From Clostridiales bacterium (lineage in GTDB: Bacteria; Bacillota; Clostridia; Christensenellales; Aristaeellaceae), in assembly GCA_012523405.1 (NCBI GenBank), contig JAAYIN010000085.1:1-47519 (forward strand): a DNA stretch of 47,519 bases, in the 5' to 3' direction. The position numbers and the translations under genes were made by a program. Below the pieces are notes generated by a model. The model made no database searches, was not told the origin of the DNA, and saw only the letters and a program-made list of their open reading frames with translations. Each line of letters begins with the position of its first letter. The first letter of the stretch is position 1. Positions 6,957 to 28,617 of the stretch are shown in pieces.

Positions 6957-7003
6957 AAAAAAGCGAGCCACAATCCAGCAACGGATTGTGGCTCGCTTTT
7001 TTA
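6957..7003. terminator. Bidirectional terminator between traB-like gene and rrf2 gene
   Basis: Perfect 15-base arms (6962-6976 and 6983-6997) close over AGCAAC, flanked by a run of A on the left and of T on the right. It can terminate both convergent genes. The TAA stop of the rrf2 gene lies in the flanking A/T tract (7001-7003). Confidence 0.92.
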
Positions 7004-7432
7004 TATGATGTAATGACCGATATCATCGCCCGATGCAGCAAGGTCTGCGATTGTAACGCTTTGCAGATACTCGGTGATGCGCCTGTCAAGCTCTATCCAC
7101 ATGGGCAATGTCTTGCACTCACCTGCTCTTGAGCATGTGCCAGCCTTTGCATCAAGGCAGGCAATGGGGGCAATGCTTCCTTCTGTCAGAATTAGAATTT
7201 GCGCAGCAGTGATCTGGTCGGGTGATTTTGTCAGCTTATAACCGCCGCCTTTGCCGCGCAGACCAATGAGGATATCCCCCTTGACAAGTAGAGAAATAAT
7301 GCTCTCTAGATATTTCATTGATATGCCTTGTCTTTTGGATATTTCCTTGAGCGTGATGTAGCTATCTGAATTCTGCTCTGCAAGGTCAATGATGACCCGA
7401 AGGGCATAACGTCCCTTGGTTGAAATCTTCAC
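7001..7432 (-). CDS. Rrf2 family transcriptional regulator, IscR-like
   Basis: This 143-residue winged-helix regulator begins with the family signature MKISTKGRYALRVIIDLA and has the HTH segment (ISKRQGISMKYLESII, residues 31-46) and wing (GLRGKGGGYKL). Three cysteines at 92, 100 and 106 match in number and almost in spacing the [2Fe-2S] ligands of IscR (92, 98, 104). It may therefore sense iron-sulfur status; a CymR-like role in cysteine control is the main alternative. It follows the serine dehydratase genes, whose product needs an iron-sulfur cluster, but has its own promoter. A palindrome overlaps that promoter, suggesting autorepression. Confidence 0.92.
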   Translation of the reverse strand: MKISTKGRYALRVIIDLAEQNSDSYITLKEISKRQGISMKYLESIISLLVKGDILIGLRGKGGGYKLTKSPDQITAAQILILTEGSIAPIACLDAKAGTCSRAGECKTLPMWIELDRRITEYLQSVTIADLAASGDDIGHYII

Positions 7433-11473: not shown

Positions 11474-12697
11474 TTACTTGAGGATGAGGCGGCAGTAGTT
11501 CTTCTTGCCCTTGCGAAGAAGCAAACCATCGCTTCCGATTTGATCTACGGTGATGCAGGTGGTGGTATCCGTTACCTTTTCATCTGCGACCAGCACTGCG
11601 CCAGCTTGCATCAGTTTACGTGCTTCGCCGCGGCTGGAGCATAGACCGCAGGTGACTAGAATGGTGGAAACGTGACCGTCCTCCGCCAGCATGTCAGCGG
11701 TGATGTCAAAGGTGGGGACATTGGAGCTTGCGCCGCTGCCTGCGAAGAGGGACTGCGCTGCATCCTGTGCTTTGGTCGCTTCTTCTGTGCCGTGGATGAG
11801 CTGGGTGACTTCAAAAGCAAGTACGCGCTTGGCCTCGTTGATCTCAGAGCCTTCCAGTGCGCCAAGGCGGCGAACTTCGTCCATGGGCAAGAATGTCAGG
11901 AGACCTAGGAAACGCTCAACGTCCTGATCGCCTACATTGCGCCAGTACTGGTAGAAATCAAAGGGCGAGCAGCGATTGGGATCGAGCCATAGTGCGCCCT
12001 TCTCCGTTTTGCCCATTTTCTTGCCGTCATGGGTCATGATAAGCTTACAAGTGAGGGAGAACGCATCTTCCTTTTCCTTGCGGCGGATGAGGTCAGAGCC
12101 TGAAAGCATGTTGCTCCATTGATCGTCGCCGCCAAGCTGCAAGCGGCAGCCGTGCTTTTTGAACAGGCATAGGAAGTCATAGCTCTGCATGAGCATGTAG
12201 TTGAACTCAAGGAAGGTCAGACCGACCTCAAGGCGGCGCTTGTAGCAATCTGCTGCCAGCATGCGGTTGACGCTGAACTGAGAGCCGACATCGCGCAGGA
12301 AGTCAATGTAGTTCAGGTCAAGCAGCCAATCGGCGTTGTTGACCATCATCGCCTTGCCCTCGCCAAAGTCAAGGAAGCGGGCGAGCTGCTTTTGAATGCC
12401 TGCAACGTGCATTGCGATGGTTTCCTTGGTCATCATCTGGCGAAGATCGGTTCTGCCGCTGGGATCACCAACCATTGCCGTGCCGCCGCCGAATAGGGCG
12501 ATGGGGCGATGACCTGCGCGCTGCATATGCGCCATGGCCATGATTGGGATGTAGTGACCGACGTGCAGGCTATCAGCAGTGGGATCAAAGCCGACGTAAA
12601 AGGTCATTGGACCCTCATCCAGTGCCTTGTAGAGATCCTCCTCAAAGGTGACTTGGGCAACGAATCCGCGCTCTTTTAGAATATCAAGAATGTGCAT
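11474..12697 (-). CDS. tyrS: Tyrosyl-tRNA synthetase
   Basis: This 407-residue class I synthetase charges tRNA-Tyr. It shows the HIGH-type signature DSLHVGHYIP near residue 45, the tyrosine and tRNA site block GGDDQWSNMLSGSDLIRR, the KMSKS-type loop KKMGKTEKGALWL, and a C-terminal S4 RNA-binding domain (SSRGEARKLMQAGAV). The start at 12697 is chosen because AAAAGGAG precedes it by nine bases; an ATG at 12718 overlaps the aminotransferase stop but has no good site. It is the second gene of an operon controlled by a tyrosine-type T-box leader, which is the usual control for tyrS in Firmicutes. Confidence 0.95.
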   Translation of the reverse strand: MHILDILKERGFVAQVTFEEDLYKALDEGPMTFYVGFDPTADSLHVGHYIPIMAMAHMQRAGHRPIALFGGGTAMVGDPSGRTDLRQMMTKETIAMHVAGIQKQLARFLDFGEGKAMMVNNADWLLDLNYIDFLRDVGSQFSVNRMLAADCYKRRLEVGLTFLEFNYMLMQSYDFLCLFKKHGCRLQLGGDDQWSNMLSGSDLIRRKEKEDAFSLTCKLIMTHDGKKMGKTEKGALWLDPNRCSPFDFYQYWRNVGDQDVERFLGLLTFLPMDEVRRLGALEGSEINEAKRVLAFEVTQLIHGTEEATKAQDAAQSLFAGSGASSNVPTFDITADMLAEDGHVSTILVTCGLCSSRGEARKLMQAGAVLVADEKVTDTTTCITVDQIGSDGLLLRKGKKNYCRLILK

Positions 12698-12717
12698 TTT
12701 AGGTAACTCCTTTTTCA

Positions 12718-13905
12718 TTATATATTTGCTTCAAACAGTTCTCTGAGGATTTTCATTCCCTGCTTGATTTGATCGATGGTAGAGTTGCTGAAGTTCAGCC
12801 TGAGGGTATTGTGATGTCCGCCATCTGGATAGAAGAAGGTGCCTGGGACATAAGCAACGCCGCTTTCAACTGCAGTATCAAACAAGGTAGTCGCATTGAA
12901 AGTCTCAGGCATTTCCACGAAGATGAACAGGCCGCCATCTGGACGAGTGTACTTGGTTCCTTTTGGGAATGAGTCAAGCTCGTCAAGCATGAGATTCAGT
13001 TTCTCGCGGTAAGGCACGCCAATCTCTGCGATGTGGGGTGCGAGCAGCTGGCGGCGTAGGAACTGATCAATGATCGCTTGGTTTAGATTGGGCGTATGCA
13101 GATCAGTGCCTTGCTTGCCAATGGTGCATTTGCGGATGATATCCTCATTGGCAATCATATAGCCGACGCGCAATCCCGGGCTGATGATCTTTGAAAAGCT
13201 GCCCATATAGGCGACATGTCCAGTCTGGTCATATGCTTTAATGGGGGCAATATCTTCGCCGCAGTAACGAAGATCGCGGTACGGGTCATCTTCCACAACG
13301 AGGAAGCCATATTTCGCTGCCATCTTGGCAATGGGCTCTCTGCGATCAGCAGCTAATGTGCGTCCGGAGGGATTTTGGAACGTGGGGATGATGTACAGAA
13401 GCTTTGGCTTGTGCTCGATGACCGCTGCTTCCAGCTTGTCCAGCATCACGCCGTCATCGTCGCTTTCTACAGGCACGAGATTGGATTGATAGAGGTTTAG
13501 CGTCTGCATGTTGCCAAGAAATGTCGGGCTTTCAACCAGCACGGTGTCGCCCGGGTTTAGCATGGCTTTACAGATTAAATCCATACCGGATGTGCTTCCT
13601 GTCGTTGGCAGCACGGTCTGCTTGCTTACAGGGAATGTAAACGTGCTTGCTAAATAGTCAACTAAGCTCTCCACAAAAGGCGGATAGCCCTCCGTCGCGC
13701 CATATTGCAGTATACGCTTGCCGTCCGCTAGCAATACGTCACGAGCGATGTTTGCGCAAACCTCATTTGGCAATGCATCCATGGAGGGATTACCTCCTGC
13801 AAAACTAATCATGTTTGGCCGTCCGAGCACTTTGAAGATTTCCCTGATTGCGCTGCCGGTAACCTTGTCAAAGCGAGAGGCAAAAGAAAGTCCTTCTGGA
13901 ATCAT
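12718..13905 (-). CDS. PLP-dependent class I aminotransferase, probably aromatic
   Basis: This 395-residue fold-type I aminotransferase resembles the 2-aminoadipate/aromatic (LysN/ARO8-like) group. Visible are SFAGGNPSMDALP near the N-terminus, the cofactor-binding region TTGSTSGMDLICKAML, the IIPTFQNPSGRTL and VVEDDPYRDLRY blocks, and the Schiff-base lysine in YMGSFSKIISPGLRVGYM. Such enzymes often accept aromatic, branched or 2-aminoadipate substrates, so sequence alone is ambiguous. Here the gene is first in an operon with tyrS behind a T-box whose specifier appears to be UAC. The likely reaction is therefore 4-hydroxyphenylpyruvate to tyrosine; that is inference. The start at 13905 follows a GGGGG ribosome site. 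Confidence 0.88.
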   Translation of the reverse strand: MIPEGLSFASRFDKVTGSAIREIFKVLGRPNMISFAGGNPSMDALPNEVCANIARDVLLADGKRILQYGATEGYPPFVESLVDYLASTFTFPVSKQTVLPTTGSTSGMDLICKAMLNPGDTVLVESPTFLGNMQTLNLYQSNLVPVESDDDGVMLDKLEAAVIEHKPKLLYIIPTFQNPSGRTLAADRREPIAKMAAKYGFLVVEDDPYRDLRYCGEDIAPIKAYDQTGHVAYMGSFSKIISPGLRVGYMIANEDIIRKCTIGKQGTDLHTPNLNQAIIDQFLRRQLLAPHIAEIGVPYREKLNLMLDELDSFPKGTKYTRPDGGLFIFVEMPETFNATTLFDTAVESGVAYVPGTFFYPDGGHHNTLRLNFSNSTIDQIKQGMKILRELFEANI

Positions 13906-13941
13906 ACATGAATTACCCCCTTCATCGATATTCAATAGAAT

Positions 13942-14204
13942 GAAAAATCGCCTTCCTCCATTGCTGGAGGAAGGCGAGAAAACATCGCGGTACCACTTCC
14001 GTTTGGCATTGCTTTGAAGCGTTGCCCTCATAGAGTCCTATCAGACCCCTGCGCTATAAACGGCGCACCGTCAGACCGCTACGATCAAAGATTCACGGCT
14101 GAGCTCAGGGAGGTATTTGCCATAGCGCTTGCCGCCTTCTTGCACCAACCGAAGGCTCTCTGCGGGCTTGCATGCTAAGGGTACTTGATCCCATCATTGC
14201 TGAT
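13942..14204 (-). ncRNA. T-box leader, tyrosine specificity predicted
   Basis: Read on the minus strand, this leader has the T-box layout. A stem I region holds GATGGGATCAAGTA, the AGAGAGCC and GGTTGGTGCAAG apical motifs, and a specifier region GGCAAATACCTCCC in which UAC (14115-14113) is the likely tyrosine codon. The antiterminator T-box AAGTGGTACCGCG (13998-13986) contains UGGU, which would pair with the ACCA end of tRNA-Tyr. The terminator hairpin lies at 13976-13949 and is followed by ATTTTTC. Uncharged tRNA-Tyr would stabilise the antiterminator and turn on the aminotransferase-tyrS-yigZ operon. The specifier call is by eye, without folding software. Confidence 0.9.
13943..13976 (-). 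terminator. T-box regulatory terminator
   Basis: The minus strand has perfect 12-base arms CGCCTTCCTCCA / TGGAGGAAGGCG (13976-13949) around GCAA, then ATTTTT. It forms when the antiterminator is not stabilised. Confidence 0.9.
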
Positions 14205-14210
14205 AGAGGT

Positions 14211-27170: not shown

Positions 27171-27259
27171 TATGAAAATAAAAAAGAGGCTTTTTATATT
27201 GCAAAAATGGACTTGATATCAATGCATAGAACGATACTGTAAATAAACATACAAACCTA

Positions 27260-27288
27260 TTGACATAGTGGGTATATCGGAATATACT
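27260..27288 (+). promoter_or_regulatory. cysK promoter with overlapping palindrome
   Basis: TTGACA (27260-27265), a 17-base spacer and TATACT (27283-27288). A perfect inverted repeat GTATAT-CGGA-ATATAC (27272-27287) covers the spacer and -10, a typical repressor site. Transcription would start near 27295, shortly before the small leader frame. Confidence 0.78.
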
Positions 27289-27321
27289 GGTGTTATTACA
27301 GATTTGAAGGGTGGTTCTCCA

Positions 27322-27405
27322 ATGAATCAGACTGTTTGTAAGCGAATGCGAATATACCAGAGAACGGATCGATGTTGCCATATAGAATTGCGATTGACTA
27401 AGTAA
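27322..27405 (+). CDS. Cys-containing leader peptide upstream of cysK
   Basis: A 27-codon frame lies between the cysK promoter and cysK. It starts with ATG at 27322, seven bases after AAGGGTGG, and ends with TAA at 27403. The peptide begins MNQTVCKRMR and ends RCCHIELRLTK; Cys is at positions 6, 18 and 19, the last two as tandem TGT-TGC codons (27373-27378). It is strongly basic. Cysteine codons in a short translated leader before a cysteine synthase gene suggest that ribosome stalling at low cysteinyl-tRNA controls cysK. The 30-base gap to the cysK start is short enough for coupling. No strong terminator lies in between, so control would be at translation or reinitiation. Expression is not proven. 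Confidence 0.6.
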   Translation: MNQTVCKRMRIYQRTDRCCHIELRLTK

Positions 27406-27435
27406 TGAAGACAAGACTTGAAAGGAACGATGAAA

Positions 27436-28368
27436 ATGGCTCATATTTATACATCGGCTGACCAACTGATTGGTAAAACCCCGCTTTTGGAGCTGACCCA
27501 TATTGAAAAGAAATATCAATTAGAAGCGAAAATCTTGGCAAAGCTGGAATACCTTAACCCTGCTGGATCAGTGAAGGACAGGATTGCAAAGGCAATGATC
27601 GATGACGCTGAACAAAGAGGCATATTGACACCTGATTCTGTGATCATCGAGCCAACATCGGGCAATACAGGCATTGGTCTGGCATCAGTTGCAGCTGCGC
27701 GAGGGTACCGAATCATTATTGTAATGCCTGAAACGATGTCTGTGGAGCGCCGCCAAATCATGAAAGCATATGGCGCGGAGCTTGTGCTTACAGAAGGGGC
27801 AAAGGGCATGAAGGGTGCGATTGCGAAGGCAGAAGAGCTTGCTGCTCAGACACCGAACAGTTTTATTCCAGGGCAATTTGTCAATCCTGCAAATCCTGCT
27901 GCTCACCTAGCAACCACCGGTCCTGAAATCTATGAGGACACAGACGGTCAAGTGGATGTATTTGTTGCAAGCGTGGGCACTGGCGGTACGATAACAGGTA
28001 CTGGCAGATATTTAAAAGAAAAGAATCCTCAGATCAAGATCGTCGCGGTTGAACCGGATTCATCTCCTGTGCTATCGGAAGGAAAGTCGGGTGCACATAA
28101 GATTCAAGGCATTGGTGCGGGTTTTGTTCCTGATGTGCTTGATACCAAGGTCTATGATGAAGTGATTCGAGTGACCAATGAGGACGCATTTGAGATTGGC
28201 AGAATGATTGGCATCAATGAAGGCATTTTGGTCGGCATTAGCTCAGGCGCTGCGCTTTGGGCGGCGATTGAAGTGGCAAAGCGCGTGGAAAACAAAGGGA
28301 AGAACATTGTGGTATTGTTGCCCGATACAGGCGACCGCTATCTATCAACGGAGTTGTTCTCTGAGTAA
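27436..28368 (+). CDS. cysK: Cysteine synthase A (O-acetylserine sulfhydrylase)
   Basis: This 310-residue fold-type II PLP enzyme makes L-cysteine from O-acetylserine and sulfide. The PLP lysine is in [16 protein letters not shown] near residue 41, the substrate loop is [20 protein letters not shown], and the phosphate loop is [15 protein letters not shown] near residue 178. The C-terminal [11 protein letters not shown] and [14 protein letters not shown] blocks are standard for CysK. The start at 27436 is nine bases after AAAGGA; ATG 27430 is too close. No serine acetyltransferase gene is in the window. It is preceded by the Cys-containing leader frame and a palindrome-bearing promoter, so expression is probably tuned to sulfur supply. 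Confidence 0.95.
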
Positions 28369-28456
28369 CCGATGAGACGATCCTTGAAGGCAGTATGTAC
28401 TTGGCTTGCATGATGCGATCAAGGACGGAAAATTACAGAACCTAATAGGCATATAG

Positions 28457-28595
28457 TAAAGGGGCTGTTACAGAAGTCTTTTCAAAAGACAATAGCAACA
28501 AAATCCACCTGCGAATTACTTGATTCGCAGGTGGATTTTTGTGTGTATTTACTACTGTTTTGTAAGACAACGGCCGTTTTGCAACAGCCCCTTTA
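28457..28595 (-). repeat. Inverted-repeat element with two inner hairpins; terminator of rhaD (copy 2)
   Basis: Nineteen-base outer arms (28457-28475 and 28577-28595, 17 of 19 paired) match the arms of the element at 75-127. Inside are a GTCTTTT-C-AAAAGAC palindrome (28476-28490) and a perfect 17-base-arm hairpin (28500-28516 / 28523-28539) flanked by A and T runs, able to terminate cysK on the plus strand and the rha operon on the minus strand. No target-site duplication is evident. Confidence 0.7.
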
Positions 28596-28617
28596 TTTGT
28601 CGTTTTTACATTAAACG

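Follow-up and report, generated by a model that had tools for sequence, protein, structure and literature searches.

How is cysK controlled when a short frame with Cys codons stands directly in front of it? In the window (the whole stretch of DNA analyzed, 47,519 nucleotides of a Clostridiales genome), cysK, encoding cysteine synthase A, is preceded by a candidate leader whose 27 codons include 3 for Cys, as read from the sequence. Control of amino-acid genes in Firmicutes is generally ascribed to T-boxes, riboswitches, and repressors. The initial annotation proposed instead that ribosomes slowing at these Cys codons affect translation of cysK. Here, we examine the locus itself, the corresponding loci of relatives, and the RNA pairing by which such control might work.

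The leader frame and promoter of cysK

The proposed order of promoter, short Cys-containing frame, and cysK is borne out on the sequence, with all elements on the + strand. A sigma-70-type promoter, TTGACA-17-TATACT (27260 to 27288), matches the consensus at 11 of 12 positions, and its -10 box is separated by 33 nt from the leader ATG. The leader frame, MNQTVCKRMRIYQRTDRCCHIELRLTK with stop codon TAA (27322 to 27405), is read from sequence, with its family evidence coming from relatives, and its translation places Cys at codons 6, 18, and 19, as annotated. It follows a weak ribosome-binding site, AAGGGTGG (27307 to 27314). The core CGA-TGT-TGC (27370 to 27378), encoding Arg17-Cys18-Cys19, is the proposed stall site, based on the recurrence of CGATGT in relatives. 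The cysK gene (27436 to 28368) matches Pfam PF00291 and, with 462.7 bits against a cut-off of 350.95, TIGR01139; its ribosome-binding site is AAAGGA (27421 to 27426). Judged from the sequence, ATG 27436 is the likely start, because ATG 27430 is too close to the AAAGGA site, and this start leaves 30 bases between the leader stop and cysK.

No intrinsic terminator, the hallmark of terminator-type leaders, was predicted on the + strand between 27289 and 27436. Rfam families gave no match in the window, and T-box RF00230 had none at its gathering threshold. The leader peptide found no NCBIfam or Pfam family at E values up to 10, a weak test for 27 residues, and eight other leaders had no family match either. 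Could the frame have arisen by chance? Among 5000 dinucleotide shuffles of positions 27289 to 27435, a short ATG/GTG frame with at least 3 Cys appeared in 124, a short frame holding an in-frame CGATGT in 68, and both features together in only 5, the CGATGT criterion having been taken from relatives' leaders. The two features also occurred together in 4 of 3790 overlapping 147-base stretches on both strands of the window, a count that includes stretches over the leader itself.

An operator-like element, AAACCTATTGACATAGTGGGTATAT (27253 to 27277, + strand), was located by pattern search over the -35 box and is a candidate site for an Rrf2-family (IscR/CymR-like) repressor. In this genome, the pattern CCTATTGACNNAGTNGG is matched without mismatches only at cysK, where CCTATTGACATAGTGGG over the -35 box is the single such occurrence, and with one mismatch only before metY. 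Allowing two mismatches added 11 further places, and the reversed control pattern had 16 places in all; six of the 11 were inspected, and none had a comparable arrangement of promoter, leader, and gene. Similar elements precede cysK in relatives, as judged by eye. The cysK promoter is probably also under an Rrf2-type repressor, as far as sequence can tell. Three Rrf2 genes exceed the cut-off in the genome, and the one within the window (7001 to 7432, - strand) is a candidate for the regulator acting at this operator. This gene matches the IscR and CymR models below their cut-offs and adjoins two L-serine ammonia-lyase subunits.

T-boxes are present elsewhere in the genome, with 15 matches, 8 of them over the cut-off, and none at cysK. 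Eighteen scanned cysK loci likewise gave no T-box or other family apart from four tRNA matches. With none in the window or in these 18 loci, a T-box or other Rfam family at cysK was dropped as a candidate. One T-box match in the window (13967 to 14206, - strand) scores 92.4 bits, just below the gathering score of 93, and precedes a PLP aminotransferase-like gene (12718 to 14031) and tyrS (11474 to 12718).

Cysteine leaders at cysK and metY in related genomes

If the frame were functional, its conservation could be expected in relatives. A six-frame search of 150 relatives, including the window's own genome, returned a close match to the peptide only in that genome and none in the 149 others; weak matches in 21 of the 149 (E values 0.03 to 0.9) were not accompanied by cysK or metY in the DNA examined. 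Since the peptide is not conserved as such, the DNA upstream of cysK was read in 177 loci: 30 from relatives (window included), 80 from named contigs (by title mainly Clostridia, Clostridiales, Oscillospiraceae, or Ruminococcaceae, plus a few spirochaetes), and 67 from the same family (27 new loci and 40 fetched stretches, part of 173 matching family genomes). Leaving out L199 to L202 and L204, which had no usable match, gave 172 loci, 168 of them distinct with at least 60 nt upstream.

What recurs is the position of the frame, its start, and an Arg-Cys core, so that the lack of conservation named in the initial annotation as a refutation applies to this particular peptide but not to these features. 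At many loci, promoter and cysK enclose a short frame with Arg-Cys at or close to its end, such as MRNFKAFFRCC (L097), MRYRFRC (L132), MQNFKVFFRCCPC (L123), MFYFFRCCHTRERIVGKNKN (L101), MKYPLPLRCRRC (L118), and MNGMLPGVVFRCR (L164 and L169). The only residues recurring in these leaders are R-C-(C/R/S/stop), and the window leader has TCGATGTTGCCATA in common with L101. Within the window's genus, upstream DNA was read at 10 other cysK loci, and the CGATGT core is absent from all of them (an eleventh, L058, with 29 nt, was left out); L056 has a different Cys-rich frame before cysK, and L051 has an RC-containing frame overlapping its likely promoter. As a family, these leaders have good support, and from this sequence comparison, we conclude that the window leader is a diverged member of a family of Clostridial cysteine leader peptides.

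Evidence for translation comes from the reading frame. In the region from -135 to -15 of the 168 cysK loci, CGATGT ranks second among hexamers with 41, after TATAAT with 52 and before TTGACA with 40. Thirty-nine of 42 CGATGT occurrences (not equivalent to 42 loci, as L114 has more than one) lie in a frame that starts with ATG or GTG no more than 30 codons away and stops before cysK, compared to 4 and 11 for the other two frames. CGCTGT, the form found in genus g30, is likewise biased and occurs 23 times, with 18 in frame and 3 and 10 in the other frames. Ten other hexamers, with 2 to 9 occurrences each, showed no clear bias, which serves as a rough control only. The leaders of genus g30 end in xP(L/M)RPGxxWRC at 10 of the 16 loci read. 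Across the 45 pairs of these ten leaders, differences at codon positions 1, 2, and 3 number 74, 59, and 209, and single changes are 150 synonymous versus 25 replacing; in the other two frames, the ratio is reversed (39 versus 166 and 11 versus 178). These counts are summed over pairs and are not independent events. On the sequences, this substitution pattern is the mark of a translated peptide. Synonymous changes, which the initial annotation had named as a check, prevail among these ten g30 leaders. At two g30 loci, L143 and L147, a second promoter-like TTGCCA-17-TATAAT was seen by eye between leader and cysK.

A second Cys leader stands before metY, an O-acetylhomoserine sulfhydrylase-type gene (PF01053), in the window's own genome: MTSCNNFRMCGFY, with a good ribosome site, lies between promoter and gene. 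The metY leaders of relatives are better conserved, often reading ...RANFRFGRM(C). Forty-six loci had a metY match and 28 included its start (L059 and L061 are near-identical); CGAATGT occurs in 16 of the 28, with 16 of 16 in frame and 0 and 1 in the other frames. The pattern N-F/Y-R-F-G-R-M was found in 10 of 391 genomes of the class, with 0 for the reversed control among the matches listed, and the ten hits all have CGA, although any CGN would have fitted the pattern. Of these hits, eight lie before metY, and L240 and L242 precede other genes. The L240 leader is followed by an NlpA-type lipoprotein gene (PF03180, E value 0.00014, below the cut-off, from the first 60 residues) and that of L242, as judged by eye, by a lipoprotein-like frame and then an ABC ATPase-like frame. 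In the window's genus, G013 has VADYLERLVRANFRFGRMCSC... before metY, with no stop in the 33 codons read.

The leaders of L236, L239, L240, and L242, reading NFRFGRM or NYRFGRM, end in Arg-Met-stop without Cys. As these leaders are Cys-less and those of L240 and L242 precede lipoprotein genes of transporter type, they may sense methionine or act as arrest peptides. A metY leader of similar type, MMKYFFEKLIRENFRNGVMCLCCCLHY, was also found in L081, a MAG labelled Treponema, which suggests that leader and gene were transferred together.

Leaders with runs of Cys codons form another arrangement. A poly-Cys frame precedes cysK in 25 of the 168 loci, with a terminator-like hairpin between frame and cysK in 12, such as MYGMMCCCQQSSCCGGQLCMAFHA (L038) and MQKIFYIGMICCDARCENRVNCVIPI (L085); some of the 25 are likely chance frames. 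In the loci without a poly-Cys frame, a terminator-like hairpin occurs anywhere between -330 and -10 in 15 of 143. L060, L071, L085, and L128 have an Arg-Cys leader after the poly-Cys attenuator, and in L181, the second (Arg-Cys) frame after the attenuator extends past the cysK start. Some Clostridial Cys leaders have a terminator-like hairpin and others none, and a few stand in tandem.

Predicted pairing of the leader with the cysK initiation region

How might a ribosome on the leader affect cysK? The helix offered in the initial annotation, GTTCTC with GAGAAC, does not form in the predicted leader fold and was dropped; GAGAAC lies at 27360 to 27365, one base later than the 27359 to 27364 given there. 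Minimum-energy folds predict instead that GCCAU (27377 to 27381, + strand) pairs with the cysK start codon region AUGGC (27436 to 27440). The CGAUGU of the window is also predicted to pair with ACAUCG (27451 to 27456, cysK codons 6 and 7), and the core/cysK duplex has a predicted energy of -11.1 kcal/mol. The leader fold is not more stable than those of shuffles (z -0.26, -0.51, and -1.04). The predicted opening cost falls from 5.4 to 4.6 when the Cys codon is masked and to 3.2 when the mask is 18 nt further, and the window lacks the arm that, in the best relatives, would mask the ribosome site (-6.0 kcal/mol).

Such an arm is present in relatives including L032, L063, L086, L094, L095, and L112, where leader UUCC/CUCC-GAUGUYG would, by prediction, pair with GGAGG, the ribosome site of cysK, along with the bases preceding it. 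The folds of L063 and L086 show this core/GGAGG pairing, with a stability no better than that of shuffles (z 0.56 and 0.35). For the pairing tests, L042, L066, L070, and loci with less than 130 nt upstream were removed, leaving 38. When the core was paired with its own -35 to -13 region, 0 of 2000 GC-matched permutations was as good (38 loci; 35 after thinning), at the best of 30 settings, and against -45 to -1, the core did better than the remaining arms of its locus in 25 of 36 (p 0.008). In the CGATGT loci, opening the cysK site is predicted to cost 7.53 kcal/mol when the leader is free and 5.59 kcal/mol when a ribosome stands on the Cys codon, the smallest value among the 13 positions tried, although the minimum is broad (5.87 at -12). 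The g30 loci show no pairing signal among 11 loci despite having the best protein-level signal, and their opening cost does not drop at Cys (5.74 free, 5.80 at Cys) and is lower at other positions. A consensus fold of 14 hand-chosen sequences contains only 4 pairs with no two-sided change, the aligner failing to line up the 3' arm. One compensated pair was seen by eye in L164 and L169, which belong to genus g32 and not to the window's genus.

Pairing of the core with the cysK start is a different matter. It beats same-locus control arms in 35 of 38 loci but does not exceed GC-matched permutations (524 of 2000; 915 of 2000 for the thinned set). We take it to reflect the conserved sequence of cysK itself, which leaves the start-codon pairing of the window unproven. 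ACA stands at the paired cysK codon in 24 of 34 versus 30 of 69 (p 0.012), a difference not seen in the high-GC3 class. From these models, an RNA switch in the window would be a guess.

Possible modes of control and known leader systems

The order and position of the leader, the recurring in-frame Arg-Cys core, and the second Cys leader before metY can be read directly from the sequences. We take the best explanation, at a probability of about 0.6, to be that a translated leader senses charged tRNA-Cys through the ribosome and sets cysK expression. With plentiful cysteine, ribosomes would pass CGA-TGT-TGC, and the leader RNA would fold back onto the region where cysK translation begins; under Cys-tRNA shortage, a ribosome halting at the Cys codons would cover the 5' arm of the fold and expose the ribosome site or start codon of cysK. 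We infer the translation of the window frame, the halting at Cys, and the fold with its opening. Since there is no terminator between leader and cysK, the controlled step is most likely translation initiation. The original proposal of Cys-responsive translational control thus stands as to a Cys leader before cysK, with in-frame Arg-Cys leaders in relatives, and probably as to translation, while the mechanism would follow the scheme above.

A broader form of this explanation is possible, and we hold it only tentatively. One Clostridial family of arrest-prone Arg-(Met)-Cys leaders, with CGA-TGT before cysK and CGA-ATG-TGN in NFRFGRM(C) before metY and the NlpA-type transporter protein, would sense shortage of sulfur amino acids in many Clostridia. 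The fixed CGA and the kept NFRFGRM residues would then mean that stalling depends on nascent peptide or codon context too, not on Cys-tRNA alone. Such leaders would act alongside an operator of Rrf2 type and, in certain species, downstream of a separate poly-Cys terminator attenuator, with the window as a diverged member.

Is the peptide needed at all? The frame could be incidental to a conserved DNA or RNA motif, CGATGTNG, since CGATGT[T/C/A]G varies less than its neighboring residues. Across the cysK genes of 35 core loci, CGA accounts for 7 of the 337 Arg codons; its rarity is a circular argument at the cysK cores, because the core was found as CGATGT, and not a circular one for its use in 10 of 10 metY-type leaders. 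The strong frame bias at both genes (39, 4, and 11 of 42 at cysK; 16, 0, and 1 of 16 at metY) and the synonymous differences among the g30 leaders make this the least probable account. It is somewhat more plausible, while still unlikely, that the window frame in particular is a chance or decayed leader and that the Rrf2-type operator alone controls cysK. The missing close copy of the peptide in 149 relatives, the missing CGATGT core at 10 same-genus cysK loci, the weak ribosome site, and the lack of a stable fold would all fit, but 3 Cys codons with an in-frame CGATGT arose in so few shuffles, the frame lies where a leader would be expected, after the promoter and before cysK, TCGATGTTGCCATA is found in L101 too, and the same genome has a second Cys leader.

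Other modes of coupling between leader and gene have also to be weighed. Ribosomes ending 30 bases upstream might re-initiate at cysK, so that Cys starvation would lower or delay its expression, or the leader might set basal expression without sensing. The short gap in the window, gaps of ~18 to 35 nt in L086, L101, L110, L128, and L139, and a cysK ribosome site of only AAAGGA are consistent with this, but many relatives have gaps of 50 to 100 nt and a strong GGAGG at cysK, and by reasoning, less cysK under cysteine starvation has the wrong sign for a biosynthetic gene; we give it the same low credence as a chance or decayed frame. Slightly less credible is transcription attenuation, in which a halt at the Cys codons would keep transcription from ending, by Rho or at an intrinsic terminator, ahead of cysK. 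The 12 other cysK loci with a poly-Cys leader followed by a terminator-like hairpin, some of which add an Arg-Cys frame (L060, L071, L085, and L128, and L181, whose frame passes the cysK start), favor it. Against it, no terminator-like site lies between leader and cysK in the window, and such a site follows the CGATGT core in only 1 of 38 loci (L182).

Translation-level sensing of Cys-tRNA, our preferred reading, has parallels in known systems. In ermC-type translational attenuation, a leader region pairs with the ribosome site of the gene, and a halted ribosome frees it. Mycobacterial polycysteine leaders were reportedly described by Canestrari et al. in 2020; that type, with a leaderless mRNA and a Cys run next to the stop, does not fit the window, where the -10 box stands 33 nt ahead of the ATG and the Cys pair lies 8 codons before the leader stop. 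The likeness of RxxHIEL to an actinobacterial RRHVDL core, pointed out in the initial annotation, is not supported: HIEL is not kept in relatives (L101 reads RCCHTRER), and NCBIfam and Pfam gave no match, a weak test at this length. Cysteine genes of Mycobacterium smegmatis are regulated by translation attenuation, according to an excerpt citing Canestrari et al. 2020 (PMC13236596). Passages of PMC1262725 describe Cys leaders without obvious terminators at actinobacterial cys operons, in Mycobacterium and Propionibacterium acnes, and at Bifidobacterium longum cbs, as well as the LEU element of actinobacterial leuA, a leader region pairing with the ribosome site of the gene. Like the leader here, these Cys leaders are, in those passages, short frames with Cys codons near the stop, before cysteine genes and with no obvious terminator (PMC1262725). 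Compared to what those passages describe, the present leader belongs to another lineage, has another peptide with an Arg-Cys core of mostly fixed CGA-TGT, has a ribosome site and 5' leader rather than being leaderless, lies below an operator-like element over the promoter, and also occurs before metY. Compared to the ermC type and the LEU element, the signal here would be shortage of Cys-tRNA, and the putative masking helix comes from prediction and from permutation in relatives.

Two further systems share features with this one. The uORFC-8-2 motif before cysS in Rhodobacterales, as outlined in PMC8632094, has tandem Cys codons in a short frame, as in the window, and an intrinsic terminator, with ribosome-mediated attenuation proposed; the window has neither terminator nor cysS downstream, and the nearer analogue would be the Clostridial poly-Cys leaders with terminators. 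Leader peptides in Firmicutes were, in the extract of PMC2965389, reported as new in 2010, for hisS. That extract presents them as amino-acid leader peptides replacing a T-box, as here, but for histidine, at an aminoacyl-tRNA synthetase gene of Bacilli and by transcription attenuation. Searches of open-licence papers brought up no report of Clostridial Cys leaders, whether before cysK or before metY. The Clostridial cysteine leader appears to be a case of ribosome-mediated amino-acid attenuation, and a ribosome-sensing cysteine switch, so far described mainly in other bacterial groups, is probably present here. If so, a large set of such Clostridial leaders would add a sensor for sulfide assimilation, and a single gene would have seen its control change repeatedly between transcription and translation. 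Both cores, NFRFGRM and CGA-TGT, lend themselves to direct testing as stalling sequences.

The 3' side of cysK bears a separate feature. A repeat of ~140 bases (28456 to 28596) directly follows the gene and contains a strong hairpin (28500 to 28539). The genome has 33 copies of at least 100 bases, this one included, which are 86 to 97% identical, most of them 92 to 97%; it looks like a recently spread small non-coding element, and one copy lies 21 bases past metY (C34:35573-35710).
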